Source: Planctomycetaceae bacterium (GTDB taxonomy: Bacteria; Planctomycetota; Planctomycetia; Planctomycetales; Planctomycetaceae). Taken from it: DNA of 36,857 nt. The notes under the pieces were generated by a model. That model searched no databases. It was not told the DNA's origin and saw only the letters and a list, made by a program, of their open reading frames with translations. The position numbers and the translations under genes are program-made. The stretch lies in contig CANHVD010000002.1 in the NCBI GenBank assembly GCA_947463775.1, positions 1 through 36,857 on the forward strand, given 5' to 3'. Below are positions 3,763 through 28,155 of this stretch, one piece after another. Numbering within the stretch: position 1 is the first letter of the stretch; the number at the start of each line of letters is the position of its first letter.

Positions 3763-4045
3763 TGGCGAACAGGGGGCTAATTGGGTTCTTTGGGGCTTGA
3801 GTAAATCCTTGCGGTGGCAGAGTAGCAAATTGTCGGCAATTGCTCATGATCTGGTGCGTGTCAGTGTCGTCGCCGATCATTTCTGAGCTACCGAGTACCG
3901 TTCCATGCCCCGTCGATCGCGTTCCGAGTTGCAGGCGTCTGTTTGTCTCGTGGGGCAGAGCAGCATCGAATCGAGTCGCTACGCCCGACACTACGTTTCG
4001 AATGTCGAAAGATGCGTGAGTGTCTGGCAAACTCATGTCCGTCCA

Positions 4046-5686
4046 ATGTTCGAGCCCGCGTGTCGCGCCCTGTGGATAGTGTTGATCACGGCGATGGTTT
4101 CGCTGGGTTCCGCTTCTTATGGGCAAACTGATCGAAACCTGGATCCGAACGGAATCTCTGGCACATTGATTCTCGTTGGTGGTGGCGAAGTTCCCGATGG
4201 TGTCACTGAGCTTCTCAGGAAGAAATCAGAGGGCACATCCATTGTGATTCTGGCCGATGCGTCGTCTGAACCACTCGAGGCTGCTGAATTGGCTCGACAG
4301 TGGCTGAGCGAACATGGTCTTTCAAATGTCATTTCCGTTGATCCGGGACTCCCTGCGCCGGAGAAGTTTGCGGAGACAATTAAGGCGATTGAGAAGGCCG
4401 GCGTTGTCTGGATCTGTGGCGGGCAACAATCGCGGCTTGCAGAAGTGTATGCTGGCTCAGGAGTGGAGAATGCTCTTCGAGCGATGCTGCAACGCGGTGG
4501 CACAATCGCTGGCACATCTGCCGGAGCTGCCATCATGTCGAAAGTGATGATCGCCTCCGGAAAAGATCAGCCTGAAATCTCAGTGGGTTGGGATCTTCTG
4601 CCGGACGGCATTGTTGATCAGCATTTTAGCGAACGGAATCGACTGAATCGTTCTCGGATTGCCGTCGATCAGAATCCGGGTTTTTTTGGACTCGGGATTG
4701 ATGAATCGACGGCAGTGATTGTCTCAGGCAGAAGTCTTCAGGTGACAGGGAAGGGCAAGGCAACGGTCCTTCTGGCGAAGTGCAATTGTCGCGATGCCGA
4801 GTCTTATGAGATTGCTGCTGGCGGAGTTGCCGATCTTACGCAGTTGAGACGCTCAGCTCTGCAAAGGAAATCGGGAGTCAATCCCGGTGAGCCAGCCCCG
4901 GGGCCTCCAGAATTGAAATCGGGATCACTGGTCATTGTCGGCGGAGGCTCAATGCCGAAGGACGTGGTTGATCGATTCATTGAACTCGCAGGAGGACGCG
5001 ACGCCAGAATCATCGTACTGCCAACAGCGGTTCCTCGAGCTGAAACCACGGACGAAGTGCCCGGCTTCCTGAAACGAGCTGAAGTCGCGAACATCACCGT
5101 GCTGACTCAGCGATATGGGGAAGTTGAAACTGACGCATTTCAGTCTGCCCTGAAATCGGCGACTGGCGTTTGGTTCGGGGGCGGTCGTCAGTGGAATTTT
5201 GTTGACGCCTATGAAGGCACCACGGCAGTTGAATTGTTTCACGATGTGCTTCGTCGCGGTGGCGTTATTGGAGGAAGTTCCGCCGGAGCGACGATTCAGG
5301 GTGAGTTTCTTGTTCGAGGCCATCCCCTGGGGAATACCGTCATGATGGCGGAGGGCTACGAACGAGGATTTGCGTTCTTTCCCGGCGTTGCGATTGATCA
5401 GCATTTTGCTCAACGAGGTCGTCAGCCTGATTTGTTGCCAGTAATCAAACGTCATCCCAAACTGCTTGGGATCGGAATTGATGAGGGCACTGCTGTCGTC
5501 GTGACTGGCTCTAAAGCTGAGGTCATTGGTCAGCATTCGGCGCACTTCGTGTCCGCTCAACACCTAAAGTCGATGCCTACGGAGGCGTCCTTGCCGTTGG
5601 ACGTGAGTTCTGCTGCCGCTCTTTACACAACCGTGAATACTGGCGATTCAATTGAGCTACGGACGCTCATTGAAGATCAGCCATAA
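4046..5686 (+). CDS. Secreted tandem cyanophycinase-like protein (peptidase S51 family, two domains)
   Basis: Signal peptide MFEPACRALWIVLITAMVSLGSASYGQ if started at 4046. Two S51-like halves: 'GTLILVGGGEVPDGV...GGTIAGTSAGAAIMS...DQHFSERNR...GIDESTAVIV' and 'GSLVIVGGGSMPKDV...GGVIGGSSAGATIQG...DQHFAQRGRQ...GIDEGTAVVV'. Confidence 0.85.
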   Translation: MFEPACRALWIVLITAMVSLGSASYGQTDRNLDPNGISGTLILVGGGEVPDGVTELLRKKSEGTSIVILADASSEPLEAAELARQWLSEHGLSNVISVDPGLPAPEKFAETIKAIEKAGVVWICGGQQSRLAEVYAGSGVENALRAMLQRGGTIAGTSAGAAIMSKVMIASGKDQPEISVGWDLLPDGIVDQHFSERNRLNRSRIAVDQNPGFFGLGIDESTAVIVSGRSLQVTGKGKATVLLAKCNCRDAESYEIAAGGVADLTQLRRSALQRKSGVNPGEPAPGPPELKSGSLVIVGGGSMPKDVVDRFIELAGGRDARIIVLPTAVPRAETTDEVPGFLKRAEVANITVLTQRYGEVETDAFQSALKSATGVWFGGGRQWNFVDAYEGTTAVELFHDVLRRGGVIGGSSAGATIQGEFLVRGHPLGNTVMMAEGYERGFAFFPGVAIDQHFAQRGRQPDLLPVIKRHPKLLGIGIDEGTAVVVTGSKAEVIGQHSAHFVSAQHLKSMPTEASLPLDVSSAAALYTTVNTGDSIELRTLIEDQP

Positions 5687-5715: not shown

Positions 5716-6117
5716 TCAGGACGATTCCCAATCTTCGATAGCCAAACCTGAAACCCTCGCAAACTCCGACGTGTTAGCGGTCACCAATATTAGGTCGTTT
5801 GCACGTGCGATTGCGGCAATCTGAAGATCATAAGGACCAATCGTACGGCCTTGTGTGGCGAGATCTGCCCGAATGTCGGCGAAATGTAGAGCTGCATTCA
5901 GTTCAAAGTCGTAAGATTTGAAATGATGAACAAAAGGCAGCAGTACCGCTAATGTTTGTTCTTTTCGTTTCGACTTTGCAGCTCCAAAAAACAACTCTGC
6001 CACTACGACCGAACACAGACACTTTTTGCCCGCAGGCACTGACAGCATTTTCTTCCTCAACGGTTCACTTCGGCCTTCGAGAAAGCGAATGCAAACGTTT
6101 GTGTCGAGAAGAAACAT
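5716..6117 (-). CDS. vapC: PIN-domain toxin, VapC family
   Basis: 133 aa, MFLLDTNVCIRFLEGRSEPLRKKM...CSVVVAELFFGAAKS...TIGPYDLQIAAIARANDLILVTANTSEFARVSGLAIEDW: PIN acidic residues and typical C-terminal motif. Confidence 0.92.
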   Translation of the reverse strand: MFLLDTNVCIRFLEGRSEPLRKKMLSVPAGKKCLCSVVVAELFFGAAKSKRKEQTLAVLLPFVHHFKSYDFELNAALHFADIRADLATQGRTIGPYDLQIAAIARANDLILVTANTSEFARVSGLAIEDWESS

Positions 6118-6589: not shown

Positions 6590-7192
6590 CTATTCAATCG
6601 CCCGCAGTCCAATGTTGAATTTCAGCGCCAATAGGCGTAGCAGAACAACAAGGGTCACGCTGATTGCAAAGTCTGCCGACGTGGGCAGAGGCAGGAGTTT
6701 ACAGCCAATCAGGACCCAGCCTCCAAGAAAAGCGCACGTCGCGCAGAGAGGTGTCATGGGGCGGAAGAGACTGGGCACTTCGTTGCATGCGATGTCGCCG
6801 ATCACACCGCCGAATGTCCCCGTCATGACTCCGAAGAGCACTGCCACAAAAGGAGCGACGTCCTGCTCCAGGGCGATCTCCGTTCCAAGGATACTGAAGA
6901 GACCCAGACCGAGTGCGTCCGGGAAATACAAAAACGTCTCGACCCAATCAGGGACACGTGGAACCATCGACACCGCAGCGGCTACAACAAACACGATCAC
7001 CGGGTACCACGAGTACTGAATCCAGAACAGCGGGTGACGATCCAGCAGCACATCGCGCAACGTGCCCCCACCGAACGCTGTCATGAACGCGACAGAGAAG
7101 ACTCCGACAAAGTCCATGCCTTTGCGGCGTGCCAGCAGCACTCCAAAAATCGCGCCGCTGATTACAGCGGCGACTTCGATTACCAGCATCAT
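6590..7192 (-). CDS. TRIC-type trimeric intracellular cation channel family protein (UPF0126/YadS-YicG family)
   Basis: 200 aa with repeated glycine-rich TM motifs 'FMTAFGGGTLRDVLLDRHPLFWI' and 'GVMTGTFGGVIGDIACNEVPSLFRP'. Confidence 0.9.
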   Translation of the reverse strand: MMLVIEVAAVISGAIFGVLLARRKGMDFVGVFSVAFMTAFGGGTLRDVLLDRHPLFWIQYSWYPVIVFVVAAAVSMVPRVPDWVETFLYFPDALGLGLFSILGTEIALEQDVAPFVAVLFGVMTGTFGGVIGDIACNEVPSLFRPMTPLCATCAFLGGWVLIGCKLLPLPTSADFAISVTLVVLLRLLALKFNIGLRAIE

Positions 7193-7770
7193 GGTGCAGG
7201 CTTCTCCGACGAGGAATGTTCCGGAGGAACTGTTGTCGGCGGGCCACCCTCAGGAGCAGGACGATTGGCGATGATCGGGTTGCCGGTCAGATCCACTTCA
7301 ACCCATTCGACGGGGTTTCTGAAGTCCAGACGGAACGAGCGTTCACGGATCTCCTGTTCCTGGATCAACTGATAAACGTAAAGTTCGATGACATCCAGTT
7401 CCCAATCCAACTTCTGCATTTCGACCTTTTCTCTGACAAGATCATGAATTCGAGTTTGCAGGTTCGCTATCAAGGCGACGGACTTGGGATCGCCGGATGT
7501 GGGATCAAACTTCAGCTTCATTCCAATCTGCAGCATTCCAGGAGTGTCTTTGTGCAGCTTGCGTTTGCCGCCATTGACCCGTGGAGCGGAGCCTGGGAAC
7601 TCGGCAACGATCGCCTCCTGTAACGGCATGAACGGCATCAGATGCAGCGTCCAGTAGCCGTAGAGAAATGCAGTGGCACAAATCCCCATCAAAAACATTG
7701 AGGCCACGACCTTGCGTCCGGTCAAAAATGGGCGTCTGGTGGGCACTTCAGGATTTGACATGGAATACAT
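7189..7770 (-). CDS. Hypothetical single-pass membrane protein
   Basis: 193 aa with one N-terminal TM (VVASMFLMGICATAFLYGYWTLHLM). Stop overlaps the TRIC gene start by 4 nt (ATGA), implying coupled translation. Confidence 0.7.
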   Translation of the reverse strand: MYSMSNPEVPTRRPFLTGRKVVASMFLMGICATAFLYGYWTLHLMPFMPLQEAIVAEFPGSAPRVNGGKRKLHKDTPGMLQIGMKLKFDPTSGDPKSVALIANLQTRIHDLVREKVEMQKLDWELDVIELYVYQLIQEQEIRERSFRLDFRNPVEWVEVDLTGNPIIANRPAPEGGPPTTVPPEHSSSEKPAP

Positions 7771-7903: not shown

Positions 7904-7933
7904 TTGACGTTTGGGCTGCCGATCTTTTACAGT
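7904..7933 (+). promoter_or_regulatory. Candidate sigma70-like promoter of the leader/cimA transcript
   Basis: TTGACG (7904-7909), 18-nt spacer, TACAGT (7928-7933). 5/6 and 4/6 matches to the housekeeping consensus. By eye only. Confidence 0.35.
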
Positions 7934-7940
7934 TCCGCTC

Positions 7941-8018
7941 ATGAGCTTCAGCATTATCAGCATTCAGATTATCGGACTCGGCGGCATTATTACCGCTCGA
8001 CCGCCGCTTTATGCCTGA
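7941..8018 (+). CDS. Isoleucine-rich leader peptide, 25 aa
   Basis: ATG AGC TTC AGC ATT ATC AGC ATT CAG ATT ATC GGA CTC GGC GGC ATT ATT ACC GCT CGA CCG CCG CTT TAT GCC TGA = MSFSIISIQIIGLGGIITARPPLYA: 7 Ile of 25 residues, including tandem Ile-Ile three times, just upstream of a terminator hairpin and cimA. Confidence 0.85.
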   Translation: MSFSIISIQIIGLGGIITARPPLYA

Positions 8019-8070
8019 GGATCGCAGAAACTGAATTTCGCAGCCCTCAGGACACCCTGAGGGTTTTTTT
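8014..8070 (+). promoter_or_regulatory. Transcription attenuator: mutually exclusive antiterminator and terminator
   Basis: Arm 2 CCTGAGG (8014-8020, overlapping the leader TGA) is the exact reverse complement of CCTCAGG (8045-8051), which also forms the 5' arm of the terminator. Confidence 0.8.
8044..8070 (+). terminator. Intrinsic (Rho-independent) terminator upstream of cimA
   Basis: CCCTCAGG (8044-8051) - ACAC loop - CCTGAGGG (8056-8063) - TTTTTTT (8064-8070): perfect 8-bp stem, tetraloop, 7 Ts. No +-strand gene precedes it apart from the leader peptide. Confidence 0.9.
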
Positions 8071-8092: not shown

Positions 8093-9673
8093 ATGTCCCG
8101 TATCCAGCTGTATGACACAACCTTGCGTGATGGTTCTCAGGGAGAAGGCGTTAATTTCTCGCTGCAGGACAAGCTGATGATTGCACAGCGGTTGGATTCA
8201 TTGGGATTCGACTACATCGAAGGCGGATACCCACTCTCCAATCCTAAAGACGAAGAATTCTTTCAGCGAATTGCTGACATGGACCTGAAACACGCCCGTG
8301 TTTCTGCCTTTGGGATGACTCGCCGAAAAGGCGTGGCGGCCGAAGACGACATCGGCATGCAGGCGCTGATTCGATCAATGGCTCCAGCGGTGACCATTGT
8401 TGGCAAGACATGGGATTTGCATGTTACGGAAGTCCTGCGAGTCTCGCTGGAAGAAAACATCGCGATGATCAGAGACTCCATTGGATATGTTGCATCGGAG
8501 GGAAGGGAAGCAATCTACGACGCGGAGCATTGCTTCGACGGCTGGAAGGCGAATCCTGACTACGCGTTGCAGACATTGCAGGCCGCAGCAGAAGCCGGAG
8601 CCAGTATGATTGTCATGTGCGACACCAACGGAGGAACGCTGCCGGAACAAATTGCGGAGTTCGTTTCAGCTCTGAAGGCCGCTGTGAAAGTGCCAATCGG
8701 AATTCATTGCCACAATGACTGTGAACTGGCCGTTGCGAATTCGTTGGCGGCCGTAAAGGCTGGGGCGATGCAGGTTCAGGGAACGATCAACGGAATTGGC
8801 GAACGCTGCGGGAACGTGGATCTTGTTTCCGTCGCCGCAAACTTGAATATCAAACTGGGTTATGAAGTTCTTGTCCCCGGTGGTATTCAGAGGCTTACAG
8901 AACTGTCTCGCTATGTGTACGAACTGGCGAACATGAATTTCCGTTCCGGGCAACCCTTTGTCGGCACAAGTGCCTTTGCCCACAAGGGAGGCATGCACGT
9001 CCATGCTGTCAATCGACTGGCCAGAAGTTACGAACACATTACTCCCGAAGCTGTGGGCAATGAACGTCGAATTCTGGTCAGTGAGTTATCCGGTCGATCG
9101 AACATCGTGGCCAAAACAACGAAGTTCAACATCAGTCAGGACAACGAACTGATGGCGCGGATTCTGAATGCCGTTCAGGATCTGGAGAACGAAGGATATC
9201 AGTTTGAGGCTGCTGAGGCGTCGTTTGATTTGCTGGTGATGAAACAGGCTGGCAGTTATCAGCCAGCGTTTCAGCTCGAACATTATCGAGTGCATGTTGA
9301 AAATCAGGCCCGCGACCCTATGACAGAAGCTGTGATCAAGCTGGCAATCGACTCAGCTCGACAACACGTTGTCGGCGAAGGCGATGGCCCGGTAAATGCT
9401 CTGGACAGTGCGTTGCGAAAGGCACTGACTCCAGCCTATCCGGGACTCGCGGAAATGGCTCTTGTCGACTACAAGGTGCGTGTGATTAACAGCTCCGAGG
9501 GAACGGCGGCCAAGGTTCGGGTTGTGATTGAAAGTCGTGATCGCAACAGTGTCTGGAGTACTGTTGGGGTCAGTGAAAACATCATCGAAGCCAGCTGGAT
9601 CGCTCTGGTGGACGCCGTCGAATACAAGATTCACATGGATCGTGGAGTCATCCGAAGCGGTGGCAACGCCTGA
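8093..9673 (+). CDS. cimA: (R)-citramalate synthase
   Basis: MSRIQLYDTTLRDGSQGEGVNFSLQDKLMIAQRLDSLGFDYIEGGYPLSNPKDEEFFQRI... HMGL-like catalytic domain plus a C-terminal LeuA-type allosteric domain. The ORF track start (7790) would include the promoter and attenuator; ATG at 8093, 22 nt after the T-tract, is the credible start. Confidence 0.9.
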   Translation: MSRIQLYDTTLRDGSQGEGVNFSLQDKLMIAQRLDSLGFDYIEGGYPLSNPKDEEFFQRIADMDLKHARVSAFGMTRRKGVAAEDDIGMQALIRSMAPAVTIVGKTWDLHVTEVLRVSLEENIAMIRDSIGYVASEGREAIYDAEHCFDGWKANPDYALQTLQAAAEAGASMIVMCDTNGGTLPEQIAEFVSALKAAVKVPIGIHCHNDCELAVANSLAAVKAGAMQVQGTINGIGERCGNVDLVSVAANLNIKLGYEVLVPGGIQRLTELSRYVYELANMNFRSGQPFVGTSAFAHKGGMHVHAVNRLARSYEHITPEAVGNERRILVSELSGRSNIVAKTTKFNISQDNELMARILNAVQDLENEGYQFEAAEASFDLLVMKQAGSYQPAFQLEHYRVHVENQARDPMTEAVIKLAIDSARQHVVGEGDGPVNALDSALRKALTPAYPGLAEMALVDYKVRVINSSEGTAAKVRVVIESRDRNSVWSTVGVSENIIEASWIALVDAVEYKIHMDRGVIRSGGNA

Positions 9674-21531: not shown

Positions 21532-24500
21532 TCAGCCGCTCGAATTCGAAGGCCTGTCTGGTGGTCGCACGCCTGATCGTGACTTCGATGCTGAGCTGTC
21601 TTCAATTCCTGAGGGATCACCCCGGGATGCACGGCTTGAGGAATCGTCGACAGCGACGGGGACCTTAATGACCTGCGCATCGAGTGGAATAAGAGTTGTT
21701 TCTGTACTTGCTTCGCGATTTCGAGCAAAGGCTGCTACTGAGAGCACAAAGAGTCCAACAACAAGTGAGAAGACGGCTGGCATCTCTCCCCGCTCGCTGA
21801 TTAACAAAGAGAATTCCTGATGCTCGGTGGAAATTTTGCAGGTGGCCGATGCATGGAGTCTTCGACCGGTCTTTTCGAATCTTTGAAGAAACTCATTGCG
21901 AAACGACAATTGTAGCCGGGCCAATGAATCACGGGAGGGGAGCATCTCCAGAGATCGTCCTGACTCAGGGACCGCTGATTCGGCGTGCAGGAGACTGACG
22001 TCAATGTCGGCCTGCTGTGCTGACGGCAGTGCCGTCAGGGAAGTAGCAGGCACGCCGGGACGAACAAATCGAGGTGTTCCGTTCTCTGCAAAGACGGTCA
22101 GAAAGCCTCGAGTCACACAGTTGACTGGGTAAGGCGGATAAAGTTCCAGTTCAGGTGAGGTGCCTTCGAGGTCAGTTCTGCGTCCCAGCCAACGCAACTT
22201 CAAAGTTGTCACTGGTTTCAGCAAATCTACCACGAGAGATTTATGGGAACCATCATCCCATCGCGTCGATTCGTCAGTCTCAACTTCTGTGACGACCGTT
22301 TCTGCCGGAATCTTTACGAGACACTTTGATGGTATGTCGGCCGCATAAAGCAGGACGAGAGTTTCCCCCACCGCCGACTGTCCTGAACAATACCAGACGA
22401 CGGTATCTGTGTTGGCAACGATCTCCCGAACCGTCTCGGCATTGCCGGAATCCTGAACAGCGGGGGCAGGAATGAGAAGTCTGGATTCGGTCAGATCTGG
22501 CCCGTCAGGCAGATTCAGGAGGCCTGACTTTTTGATCTCTGCCTCTTTGCCTACGGACAATGCGGCGTTGGAAAGCCATATTGGGATAGCCGACGACACA
22601 TTCTTCAGCGCTGCGGTGTGTTCTGCGGATCCGACAGAGGCATCTGTTGGAACCAGAAGCAAATTGTCCCATCGCATTTCGTGAAGAAGATCGGGGAACT
22701 CATAGCTGACAGAACGCTGGCGATCGTCCACTGTTCCAGCAGGCAAAGTCCAGATGACTGTGAACTCCGGCTGGTCGAACATTTCTCGAACGACACTCTG
22801 ATCTGCCACAAAGCTGTCTTCGTCATGAGACAATGTGAGTGCCCTCTGTTCGATCAATACGAAAGGTTCGCGAATAAAAGTCGGTGCTTTTTTAAATCTG
22901 ACCTGTAGTGGTCCATGGCTTCCTGACCACTGACTGATATGCAGAACGAATGTTACCTGATCGGCTGATCTGATCGCGGCTAGTGATCCCGTTGGCTCTA
23001 CGGGACGTGCTCGCACAAGAACGATGGGCTCAGTTTCATTCACCACCTGCATCCGGATAGGTGTTTCCGGTGGAATTGTATCGCCAGGACCTACGCGATT
23101 ATCCGGAACTGCTCCCCCGAGCTTTTGAATAGAGAGACCCAGTGCCTCCCGATCCTGCACTGTCATGGAAGATTCAAGGATCTGTGCATTCTGGAGATGC
23201 GGACTATGCAGCGACACGGTCGTATCATCCGGCCGAATTTTCTGCTGCCCTGTGAGTGTGATGCTGTGCGCGCCAGTAGTTCCTTCCTTTAGCTGGATTA
23301 CAAGCTGGTCGCCTCGTCGATGCCACGAGTCCAGACGGTTGGCTTCTCCTGCAACAACCTGCACATCGTTCACGACGACAGTCGAAGTGAGTGTAAGACG
23401 ATGACGAAAAACCGGAAGTACAGATGTCTCGACGTCAATCTGACACTTCCATTCGATTTCTCCTTCGCGAATATCTGCGTTCTGAGAGATGCGAACTTCA
23501 TTTACGCTGGTCCGTGGAACCAGGTTGATCTCAACTGTTTCATTTCCAGCGGGGACTCGAAAGACAACATCCGATCGCCGAAGCCATTGCCCCCAATCGG
23601 ACTGCAGCTCCGGGAAAGCGGCAGTTGAAACTTGTTCGCCTTGAGGAGGAAGCACTGAAAAGACAGAGTTGGTTCTTACGGCAAGCAACAAATCCGGAGC
23701 GACAACGCAATCCGAGAATTGTTGAAGCTCAGAAACTGGTACTGGCTGTTTCTGAACGTCTCCGGCAGTCAGACGGACCAATTGAAAAACCAGAACAAAG
23801 CTGTCGCCGGTACCGGGAGGAAGCTGAATCACCGCATTTTGGTCTGTTACCGACCATAACAGGTCTGTGATTACATCTGCACCTGTTGTCGCTGAGACCG
23901 TGTTCAGCCGAAATCCAGCAGGAACTCGGTAACGAACTTCGGGCGCTAATTTGTTCCACCGTGTAAATCGGCATATGCAGTTCATGATCTGTTGACCGGC
24001 GTTCGTTTCACAGATGCTTAGAATCTGAACTGTTGCTGAGCGTGGACTCCCTCGTTCAATTTCATTTTGGAGCAGCCGGAAATCGACCCCATCAGACATT
24101 CCGAGACTATTGAGTTCTGTTACACCTGCCGCAGGTTTCCACTGGACTGCTCCCTCCGGAGACTGTGCTCTTGCACTGGAGTATAGATCTGCAGGGCATA
24201 CAACTTCGACCGTGGTTTCGGGGCAGGGCAGGCTGGGTAGCCGGAATTGGACCCCCGATGTTTGTCTTGAGGTCACAGGCCGCAGTCGACACTCAATGGT
24301 GTGCATAGTGAAGGCATCAAGGGAGCCCGCATCCACGGAGGTTGAAATTGCTGAACGATCTCCTGCAGAGAGGAACGTAGAGTCTTCAACAGAACGAGAC
24401 GGGAGAAGACTGGAAGCAGGGATTTGGACAACGATAGAATCTGAGCCAAAAGGTTCCGGGAGGATCGGGATTCCGTCGACCCGGCATTCAACAAGATGAG

Positions 24501-27500
24501 AACCCTGCAGCGGAATACGCAACACCGAATCTTCCTCGCCGCTGATGGCAGAAACTCCCACTGTGAGCCGAACTTCAAGAGAATTCGCGGCCTCTGCCAC
24601 GATTTTCGCATGCAGCTTTGTGACCACAGCGGCTGGCATCAGACTCTTTTGATCAATCGTGTTTTGCTGAAAACGATCAAAGATATCACGGCGAACGTAA
24701 ACGATATCTGCGTCTGAAAACTCAACGTCTGGCATCAGGACGTCAATGCCTCGACTTTGTTTTGGAGGGATCACCTCTCCCGAATTGCCAGCGGTTCGCA
24801 GTAGGGGAGCAGTGCCGGGCGCTGGACTTTGCCATGCATTGGCAGTCTGGGAATAACCGATGACCACAATCACGACGCACGACTGAATCCAAAGGCCCTT
24901 CAAAGGCGTTCGGATCCAATTCCAGCGACTTAGCATCACGAATGTCAAACCAACGCATAGTCCCCAGAACGCTCCTTCAAGTGTTGCATTGACCACAGGA
25001 GTTTTTACGAGCACGCTGACAGCGAGAAACCCAAGAGCCACGAAGGCTGTTGGGACACGGTAGCGTGTTGCAAGATTGCGGAAGGCTATACAGCCGAATG
25101 CCAGTAAAAGAAAGGTTCCTACTGCGATCGCAAGTCGACGGCGCAACTGAGTCACCTGAATTGTCACCGCTGTTTTTGACTCGATAGTGTCGATCAGGGT
25201 CTGTGGCTGCCAGCCCTGAACTGCTGCAAGTTGCCATTGAATGATGAACTGCCGGATTTCCGCAGGAACGGAGCGTGAATCCTGAGACTGCATCATTCGG
25301 CTTCCGTCAGTCGCGCTGATCAGGAGTCGGTCCAGAATCCCGGAGATGACGGCAGGTTCAGTTGCAGCAAATGGATTCGCGGGGGACTGCAGTTCGAGTT
25401 CCGGATCGACGAGGAAGTGATGAGTGCATTGCGGAACTGCCAGTTCATTCATAAAAAGTCGTGGAAGTTCACGTTCTCCTGTGACGCGTCGTGAACGACT
25501 GGCTGATTCAGTCCATCGCACAATGACCTGGCAGTCTGCAGAGGTCAGAGGTAGTGGAATAGAAAAGCCCGCGGGTGTTTGCTGAAGCTGCACACGATGT
25601 CCGTCGACAAGAACCAGTGGACGCAGATGTTCCGGCAATGCCAGTGGCAATGAATTCTGTCCCGCGCTGCGAGCGACGTTTGCGACGGCCAGAAGTTCAC
25701 GGTGCAGGGATCCACTTTCCTCACTGATCAGGTGCAGAATATGCAGGTCGATTGCCTGACCTGACTCCAGCCCTGGATTCACATCAACTTTGACACGAAC
25801 AGCCGAAAGGCCAGGGGGTAACTTCCAGACCGTTGATTGTGGTTCTGAATCCCGATTGTCTCTGGCGAGGCCACTGACTGAGAGTAGTCCTTCATCGCTG
25901 GCGAATAACTGAAGCGTCCCTTCGAGTGGCAGTGTTGAGTCCGGTACAGGGATTGTTGCTGTGAATTCAGGACTTACCGTCCGTCGGGATTCGCACCGAA
26001 CAACAACAGACGATCCCGTTCCAGGGTTCTTTAATGGTATTGTCCATCGCTTCCATTCAGATGTCAGGTCGGGATCGTCTACACGTCGGGCTGCGACAGA
26101 TTCACCATCGACGGTCCATCTCAGGTCAGGACTCGCGCTGGACGTTACAGTCACAGTGACGTTGTTGTTCGTCTGCATTTCCGCAGGGATCTGAATTCGT
26201 GAATTCTCTACAATCAGCCCGTCTGTGATTCGGATTGTGTGCTCAAATTGTTGTTCAGTGCCAATCAGACTGTTGGCTGGAGAATAGATTTGTGGCGTTA
26301 ACGATATTGCATTTCCCGTTTCGAAGGCTTCCATACCGGAAAGAAAACGACTGGCCGGGAACCAGGACATCTGTTGCAGCACTTCGTCGCGACTCATGGA
26401 GCGACGTCCCATACTCCATCGTCGCTGGAGGTCTGTGTTCAGAGTAAATGCGGGTGGAAACATCACGACTGAAATGGTTCTTTCAGACTCCGGAATCGAC
26501 TGCAGCGGAAGTGCGAGTAACAGTTGGTCCGCATTGTCGGTCTGTTGCAACTGAATCTCGAGCAGACGCGATGCTCCCGGCTCAAGTGCTTCCGGAAGAT
26601 GAACTGTCAGCAAACTGACATCTGACGCAGAACTCACGTCGGTTGATTCAAAAAACAGAGAGCGGGAGTTAGACGCATAGCGGACTGAGATCACTTGCCA
26701 TCCCGGGGTTACAGGCCACTTCAGTTCTACAACAGGAGCCGCCTCACAACTGACATTTGTAAGGCAGCGAACTGTTGCGAGACGCCCGGCCGGCTCGACA
26801 ATGGTTGCAAGGGCTTCACTGATTCGTGGTTGGTTCGTTGACGTGCGAACGACTGCGGATGCCTCGGGCAGAAACTGAGTCAGTTGATACTCTCTTGACT
26901 GATCAGGGCGGGTAACAACATCTCGTTCCTGAATTCCAACCAGAGTCCACTCATCAAGCTTGATCGTCGACGGAAGTAGTACGCTGATCTGGCTCATCGG
27001 CAGAAGAATCAGTCCTTTATACTGATTATCCGTGCTAACCCAATGAGATGGCGAAAGCATGGGAAGGTTCCATGTTTCGGACTGAGGCAGTATGGACTCT
27101 GCTGAGATCGTTATCACGGCACCTGATGTCATCCTGGGGATCGACATCTTCAAAAGGAATTGATTATTCTCGTTCAGGACCGACCAATCAACGGGCCGCT
27201 TATCCTCAAGAGAAACCTCATTGACTCGCATGCCTTCCGGAATTCGAGCCACGATTGTAATCGGATGAACAACCGACGTAGGTAAGCCAATTGTCCAACG
27301 CGATGTCAGTACTTCTCCGGAAGCAATATGACTGGCAGTGAAACCGTTTAGCGTCAGAGATTCCTGAGACTTCAGGTCAGACTGGGGCCGACAACTTATC
27401 GTCAAACGTGACGAATCCCCCGGGATCAGAGTCCACGTCGAGCGCGACTCAGAAATCTCCGGGCCAAGAACTAAACTGCCAACGCTGCTGACCTGAATTC

Positions 27501-28155
27501 CGGGAGGAGTATGCAGCAGGAATTTCGAAGTTGTGGCTTTCGGCAGTGAGAACCGAAACATGACGACGTTGCCGGCCACAAGCCCATCGGCCGTCCATGT
27601 GCCGGAAAGAAGTGTTGGCACGCCGGATCGGAGCACAAATATCCGTCGTGAGGCGTCGGATCCTAGTGTCACGAGCCCCTGATCATCCGTTAGCTTCAGT
27701 TGCTGAAGGTTTGTTGTCCCCAACAACAGTGGCCCTCCAGTCGATCGGTCGGAACCGTTTCCGTTCTGAATTTCGGACTGAGACTGTGGAACCAAAGCGA
27801 GTTGGTCGTCGGTGCTGGCTGCTGAATGTTCTTCATTTTCATAGAATCGGAGTTCAACCTTGCCCGAGGTGATCTGTGAGCCCTCCAGAGTGGCTTCGTA
27901 CAAGGCGTTGCTGATTCTCGATCGATTCTTTGCGAACTCAGGTTGTTCGGATTCCTGACTCTTTGTTCGAATCTTGTCTAATTCGCTCCGCGGTACTGGA
28001 ACATATTCTCCGGCGTTTGCACGCTGTCTGATCTCATCAAGAGGCACTGTTTCAGTGGAGAGTCCATGAGCCTGGTTCTGCGCATGATCGTTCGGATTCG
28101 ATCCATCGGTCGAATTCTGCATCAGCATCATCAGAAGTAAGGCCAGAACGTTCAT
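21532..28155 (-). CDS. Giant exported/membrane-anchored protein of unknown function (2207 aa)
   Basis: One uninterrupted 6.6-kb frame. N-terminal signal MNVLALLLMMLMQ, a central hydrophobic cluster, a second signal-like segment (GLWIQSCVVIVVIGYSQTANAWQ) and a C-terminal TM (VFSLVVGLFVLSVAAFARNRE). Confidence 0.85.
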   Translation of the reverse strand: MNVLALLLMMLMQNSTDGSNPNDHAQNQAHGLSTETVPLDEIRQRANAGEYVPVPRSELDKIRTKSQESEQPEFAKNRSRISNALYEATLEGSQITSGKVELRFYENEEHSAASTDDQLALVPQSQSEIQNGNGSDRSTGGPLLLGTTNLQQLKLTDDQGLVTLGSDASRRIFVLRSGVPTLLSGTWTADGLVAGNVVMFRFSLPKATTSKFLLHTPPGIQVSSVGSLVLGPEISESRSTWTLIPGDSSRLTISCRPQSDLKSQESLTLNGFTASHIASGEVLTSRWTIGLPTSVVHPITIVARIPEGMRVNEVSLEDKRPVDWSVLNENNQFLLKMSIPRMTSGAVITISAESILPQSETWNLPMLSPSHWVSTDNQYKGLILLPMSQISVLLPSTIKLDEWTLVGIQERDVVTRPDQSREYQLTQFLPEASAVVRTSTNQPRISEALATIVEPAGRLATVRCLTNVSCEAAPVVELKWPVTPGWQVISVRYASNSRSLFFESTDVSSASDVSLLTVHLPEALEPGASRLLEIQLQQTDNADQLLLALPLQSIPESERTISVVMFPPAFTLNTDLQRRWSMGRRSMSRDEVLQQMSWFPASRFLSGMEAFETGNAISLTPQIYSPANSLIGTEQQFEHTIRITDGLIVENSRIQIPAEMQTNNNVTVTVTSSASPDLRWTVDGESVAARRVDDPDLTSEWKRWTIPLKNPGTGSSVVVRCESRRTVSPEFTATIPVPDSTLPLEGTLQLFASDEGLLSVSGLARDNRDSEPQSTVWKLPPGLSAVRVKVDVNPGLESGQAIDLHILHLISEESGSLHRELLAVANVARSAGQNSLPLALPEHLRPLVLVDGHRVQLQQTPAGFSIPLPLTSADCQVIVRWTESASRSRRVTGERELPRLFMNELAVPQCTHHFLVDPELELQSPANPFAATEPAVISGILDRLLISATDGSRMMQSQDSRSVPAEIRQFIIQWQLAAVQGWQPQTLIDTIESKTAVTIQVTQLRRRLAIAVGTFLLLAFGCIAFRNLATRYRVPTAFVALGFLAVSVLVKTPVVNATLEGAFWGLCVGLTFVMLSRWNWIRTPLKGLWIQSCVVIVVIGYSQTANAWQSPAPGTAPLLRTAGNSGEVIPPKQSRGIDVLMPDVEFSDADIVYVRRDIFDRFQQNTIDQKSLMPAAVVTKLHAKIVAEAANSLEVRLTVGVSAISGEEDSVLRIPLQGSHLVECRVDGIPILPEPFGSDSIVVQIPASSLLPSRSVEDSTFLSAGDRSAISTSVDAGSLDAFTMHTIECRLRPVTSRQTSGVQFRLPSLPCPETTVEVVCPADLYSSARAQSPEGAVQWKPAAGVTELNSLGMSDGVDFRLLQNEIERGSPRSATVQILSICETNAGQQIMNCICRFTRWNKLAPEVRYRVPAGFRLNTVSATTGADVITDLLWSVTDQNAVIQLPPGTGDSFVLVFQLVRLTAGDVQKQPVPVSELQQFSDCVVAPDLLLAVRTNSVFSVLPPQGEQVSTAAFPELQSDWGQWLRRSDVVFRVPAGNETVEINLVPRTSVNEVRISQNADIREGEIEWKCQIDVETSVLPVFRHRLTLTSTVVVNDVQVVAGEANRLDSWHRRGDQLVIQLKEGTTGAHSITLTGQQKIRPDDTTVSLHSPHLQNAQILESSMTVQDREALGLSIQKLGGAVPDNRVGPGDTIPPETPIRMQVVNETEPIVLVRARPVEPTGSLAAIRSADQVTFVLHISQWSGSHGPLQVRFKKAPTFIREPFVLIEQRALTLSHDEDSFVADQSVVREMFDQPEFTVIWTLPAGTVDDRQRSVSYEFPDLLHEMRWDNLLLVPTDASVGSAEHTAALKNVSSAIPIWLSNAALSVGKEAEIKKSGLLNLPDGPDLTESRLLIPAPAVQDSGNAETVREIVANTDTVVWYCSGQSAVGETLVLLYAADIPSKCLVKIPAETVVTEVETDESTRWDDGSHKSLVVDLLKPVTTLKLRWLGRRTDLEGTSPELELYPPYPVNCVTRGFLTVFAENGTPRFVRPGVPATSLTALPSAQQADIDVSLLHAESAVPESGRSLEMLPSRDSLARLQLSFRNEFLQRFEKTGRRLHASATCKISTEHQEFSLLISERGEMPAVFSLVVGLFVLSVAAFARNREASTETTLIPLDAQVIKVPVAVDDSSSRASRGDPSGIEDSSASKSRSGVRPPDRPSNSSG

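Follow-up and report, generated by a model that had tools for sequence, protein, structure and literature searches.

Described amino-acid attenuators and the planctomycete cimA leader

In the enterobacterial trp, his, leu, ilv and thr attenuators, a leader peptide rich in the end-product amino acid is followed by mutually exclusive antiterminator and terminator structures, with the leader stop codon near segment 2. The leader described here, upstream of the citramalate synthase gene cimA of a Planctomycetaceae bacterium, resembles them in its leader peptide, its predicted exclusive hairpins and the position of its stop codon near segment 2. It differs from them in phylum and in target gene, and none of the Rfam leader families, among them those for His, Leu, Thr and Trp, reached threshold, the best being His_leader with 18.3 bits against the 49 needed. 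A T-box, a riboswitch or another Rfam RNA was rejected for the same leader, as no Rfam match was obtained.

Several actinobacterial systems offer further points of comparison. In Corynebacterium glutamicum ilvBNC, the leader start codon lies one nucleotide from the transcription start, so that the leader is leaderless (PMC11857589). That attenuator and the planctomycete one are alike in this leaderless start, which is predicted for the latter, in their branched-chain amino acid (BCAA) codons and in an arm common to terminator and antiterminator, whereas C. glutamicum uses mixed Ile, Val and Leu codons on acetohydroxyacid synthase (PMC11857589) and the window uses Ile alone on citramalate synthase, the planctomycete ilvB having no such leader. 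In Mycobacterium tuberculosis ilvB1NC, a stall at BCAA codons likewise frees an antiterminator and a ribosome at the stop codon permits the terminator, but the codons are LVVI, the leader is 166 nt long and the gene is another one (PMC13236596). A run of Leu codons before leuA is shared with the LEU element, described with ilvB leaders in actinobacteria (PMC1262725); that element is, however, a pseudoknot close to the Shine-Dalgarno box of leuA, whereas the planctomycete leuA leaders end in ordinary intrinsic terminators. The full texts searched, mostly from outside the subscription journals, reported no leader in planctomycetes or on cimA, and an earlier sequence-only reading of this DNA likewise knew of no described planctomycete case of an Ile leader on cimA. 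The mechanism is classical, while the target gene and the phylum appear to be undescribed, and our reading would add citramalate synthase to the targets of end-product leader-peptide attenuation and Planctomycetes to the phyla that use it.

Anatomy of the cimA leader and its putative promoter

We analysed one stretch of 36,857 nt, referred to as the window. The features of the cimA leader, all on the plus strand, are as follows.

7904..7933, plus strand: putative sigma-70-type promoter TTGACG-18-TACAGT (consensus scan), with the -10 hexamer ending 7 nt before the leader ATG
7941..8018, plus strand: leader peptide ORF of 25 codons, MSFSIISIQIIGLGGIITARPPLYA and stop (ORF translation; Ile enrichment across relatives)
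7946..7951, plus strand: segment 1, candidate protector CUUCAG, able to pair with CUGAGG at 8015-8020 in untranslated RNA (minimum-free-energy fold of 7941-8070, this sequence only)
8013..8020, plus strand: segment 2, GCCTGAGG, which overlaps the stop codon of the leader and is the predicted antiterminator 5' half (conservation; pairs with 8045-8051)
8042..8070, plus strand: intrinsic terminator with stem 8042-8065 (core 8044-8063), loop ACAC and U-tract 8064-8070 (sequence, fold, covariation in relatives)
8044..8051, plus strand: segment 3, CCCTCAGG, common to the predicted antiterminator and the terminator (conservation, covariation analysis)
8093..9673, plus strand: cimA, (R)-citramalate synthase, the putative regulated gene (TIGR00977)

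Re-translation of the ORF confirmed the coordinates and sequence given by the sequence-only reading, including seven Ile codons (5 ATT and 2 ATC) and three Ile-Ile pairs. The rest of the arrangement it described was also recovered exactly: a spacer of 25 nt leads from the leader stop to a perfect 8-bp hairpin at 8044-8063 (CCCTCAGG-ACAC-CCTGAGGG), seven T follow at 8064-8070, and the cimA ATG lies 22 nt further on. Its assignment of the downstream gene to citramalate synthase was borne out by a TIGR00977 score of 704.9 bits (cut-off 450). The terminator stretch 8029-8070 folded with z = -3.9. Because the nearest upstream gene (7189-7770) lies on the opposite strand and is transcribed away from the cimA leader, the hairpin is not that neighbour's terminator.

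The Ile density of the leader was compared with chance. When the 120-nt leader was dinucleotide-shuffled 5000 times, 4 shuffles had seven or more Ile within 15 codons, and no other six-frame segment of the 36.9-kb window reached even six Ile in 15 codons. A search of the leader peptide against NCBIfam returned no match.

The promoter assignment rests on consensus matches, and chance alone would give about one sigma-70-like match per 2 kb. Judged by such matches only, 6-7 nt separate the end of the -10 hexamer from the leader start codon in 13 of 13 loci of the window's genus, and the predicted distance was about 20-60 nt in most other genera, where a Shine-Dalgarno sequence is sometimes present (TAGGAGG in the L049 leader). 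Because the hexamer ends so close to the start codon, transcription of the cimA leader in the window's genus is predicted to start at or next to the ATG, and the leader is hence probably leaderless. The first nucleotides of the RNA would therefore be the regulatory start codon.

Conservation and amino-acid specificity of the leaders

The sequence-only reading had proposed, as a check set beforehand, that an Ile-rich ORF and hairpin should recur before cimA in related planctomycetes. We collected DNA upstream of cimA by whole-genome search and from named records, which yielded 116 distinct regions. In 83 of these 116 regions, an intrinsic terminator follows, at a distance of 17-47 nt, the end of an ORF that has 3 or more Ile within 15 codons, a threshold that is weak for any single locus (null mean 2.3). 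The arrangement thus recurs widely, as this check required. In the window's genus, each of the 13 loci whose upstream region is complete carried both the Ile ORF and the terminator. For 79 representatives, the densest 15-codon run in the 120 nt preceding the terminator was compared with dinucleotide shuffles for all 20 amino acids, so that Ile was not singled out in advance. The results showed by far the strongest enrichment for Ile (z = 25.6), followed by Tyr (9.4, from ATTATT read out of frame) and Val (5.9), and 51 of the 79 representatives reached p <= 0.05 for Ile individually. On the reverse strand Asn, read from the complement of ATT, was also high (z = 20.6). The leader strand and frame are nevertheless settled, because Ile is the densest and both of its codons are used (ATT 228 times and ATC 115 times across the relatives' leaders).

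Beyond close relatives, the leaders keep their Ile content and their position before the stop rather than their peptide sequence, as the diverse peptides VSSIIIICEITGSL in L258, MLAGRISIIIRIFIG in L049 and MNIQNIIISIIINIGGD in L274, the last from outside the class, illustrate (each followed by a stop codon). Outside the class, Ile leaders on cimA occurred in scattered families (L267, L274, L277, L278, L292, L295), and most families examined there had no cimA leader. Within planctomycetes, cimA also occurs without a leader (e.g. L020, L022, L026, L039 and, in Isosphaeraceae, L121). In the window's genus, the nearly complete genomes G007 and G011 had no cimA match at E <= 1e-120 and kept leuA with its Leu leader.

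A different composition was found in Gemmataceae and relatives (L040, L107-L109, L115, L127), whose cimA leaders are rich in both Ile and Val. The leaders of L107-L109 end in VIGVVVVITTG, and several of the Gemmataceae type end in VVVVITTG or hold AQGVR followed by runs of Val. This suggests a mixed Ile/Val signal in that group, and together with the mild overall enrichment of Val it would fit attenuation by a combined BCAA signal (Ile with Val or Leu) in which Ile is one input. For the locus studied here we consider such a combined signal very improbable, as Ile dominates the leaders of the window's genus and the window peptide lacks Val codons altogether and has just two for Leu.

Other biosynthetic genes were also examined for leaders. 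Leu-rich leaders with an intrinsic terminator preceded leuA in 15 of 19 planctomycetes examined (L002, L159-L181), including the window's own genome, where the leuA leader (L002, G000:C86) reads MNNLLLTLGLLLLPS and stop, with a terminator after it. In the planctomycetes examined, no such leader preceded ilvB, ilvC, ilvD, trpE, hom (homoserine dehydrogenase) or the LeuA paralogue. Because leuA has Leu leaders and the other genes have none, the enriched codon fits the branch, Ile on cimA and Leu on leuA, and this match, read from the sequences, is the strongest argument against coincidence. A phylum-wide regime in which leaders stand only on the committed first enzymes (cimA for Ile, leuA for Leu) and not on the shared ilv genes, with a leaderless cimA leader in the window's genus, is somewhat better than an even bet. 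The threonine deaminase profile TIGR01127, which bears on whether cimA is the sole route to 2-oxobutyrate, gave matches only below its curated cut-off in 20 of 21 genomes. The Ile leaders lend support to annotating these cimA genes as citramalate synthases serving isoleucine synthesis.

Instead, the Ile ORF might be an accident of composition, standing before a terminator of the ordinary intergenic or 5'-UTR kind. L022 and L092 do have a similar CCTCAGG-type or CCTCGGG-type hairpin with no Ile ORF. Against this stand the chance tests given above (Ile z = 25.6; 4/5000 shuffles), the absence of leaders before the other biosynthetic genes and the complementarity of the spacer to the terminator arm, which leave an accident scarcely credible.

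Predicted switch and proposed mechanism

CCTGAGG at 8014-8020, in the stop-codon region, is complementary to CCTCAGG at 8045-8051, in the terminator 5' arm. Segment 2 has the invariant columns TGCCTGAGG across 11 close relatives. A conserved candidate antiterminator overlapping the leader stop codon thus exists, and it goes beyond the sequence-only reading, as do the predicted protector pairing, the putative promoter adjoining the leader ATG and the Ile+Val variants in Gemmataceae. That reading had also looked to compensatory changes in relatives. These were found in the terminator, where two pairs showed double changes and the covariation score was matched by 0 of 500 shuffles, but not in the 7-bp core of the antiterminator, which pairs in 96% of cells across 40 relatives and shows no covariation because it is almost invariant. 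Where the antiterminator extends into the terminator loop, matched classes were seen by eye: GTCGC with GCGAC or GCGGC, GTTGC with GCAGC or GCGGC, and GTCA with TGAC.

We folded the RNA of 67 representatives up to the terminator loop, with a ribosome masked either at the Ile codons or at the stop codon. The mean predicted probability that the terminator 5' arm was held upstream was 0.73 for a stall at Ile and 0.19 for a ribosome that had reached the stop codon, a contrast that is partly built in, since in the second case less RNA remains free for pairing. The leuA leaders gave 0.78 and 0.32 for the same two positions in the models. Because of this built-in component, the shuffle and swap controls weigh more. 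With shuffled spacers, the mean probability that the 5' arm was sequestered was 0.48 in the same 67 representatives. Native duplexes between spacer and arm averaged -17.7 kcal/mol, compared with -14.1 kcal/mol when spacers were exchanged between species (p = 6e-12), and exchange of the terminator loop alone also weakened the duplex (p = 2e-4), p-values that overstate independence because the loci are related. In these models, the antiterminator shares an arm with the terminator; a stall would free it, and a ribosome that has moved on to the stop codon would cover it.

The ORF could alternatively encode a small hydrophobic peptide in its own right, closed by a separate terminator, with another promoter for cimA behind it. 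The peptide is indeed hydrophobic and stands directly before the terminator, and although the distance from T-tract to cimA is only 22 nt in the window, the 40-270 nt in relatives give room for a second promoter. Outside close relatives, however, it is the Ile content of the peptide that persists, and not its sequence; moreover, the stop-to-terminator distance is constrained to 17-47 nt, spacer and terminator arm are complementary and match lineage by lineage, leuA has a parallel Leu leader and the peptide lacks an NCBIfam match. We regard the independent peptide as very improbable, marginally more so than the combined BCAA signal.

Regulation of cimA by ribosome-mediated (leader-peptide) transcription attenuation in response to isoleucine supply is strongly supported by the comparison, and we assign it a probability of roughly 0.9. 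Conservation of the leader and of the antiterminator thus supports the Ile-codon-dependent attenuation that the sequence-only reading had put forward. Transcription would begin beside the leader ATG, and a ribosome would translate the Ile-rich peptide. With charged Ile-tRNA plentiful, the ribosome would reach the stop codon and cover segment 2, and the 8044-8063 terminator would form. When Ile-tRNA is scarce, the ribosome would stall on the Ile codons and leave segment 2 (8013-8020) free to pair with the emerging 5' arm of the terminator, and polymerase would continue into cimA. In untranslated RNA, the 5' part of the leader could hold segment 2, which would favour termination. At equilibrium, the window RNA still folded preferentially into the terminator when the Ile codons were masked, so the switch would have to be kinetic, as attenuator switching is generally held to be. 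By the same sequence comparison, expression of cimA, the first enzyme of the isoleucine pathway, appears in many planctomycetes to require a ribosome stalled at the Ile codons of the leader.

A working attenuator needs transcription-translation coupling, about which the cell biology of Planctomycetes once raised doubts. The leaders also form a phylum-wide comparative set for how attenuators hold their function as peptide and RNA change.

Three other ORFs of the window were noted in passing. On the minus strand, 5716-6117 encodes a short protein starting MFLLDTNVCIRFLEGRSEPLRKK that by eye resembles a PIN-domain (VapC-like) toxin, and 21532-28155 is a very long ORF of 2207 aa. On the plus strand, the product of 3905-5686 consists of two halves in tandem, and a motif of the GGG...GTSAGA/GSSAGA type, by eye reminiscent of cyanophycinase, occurs in both.
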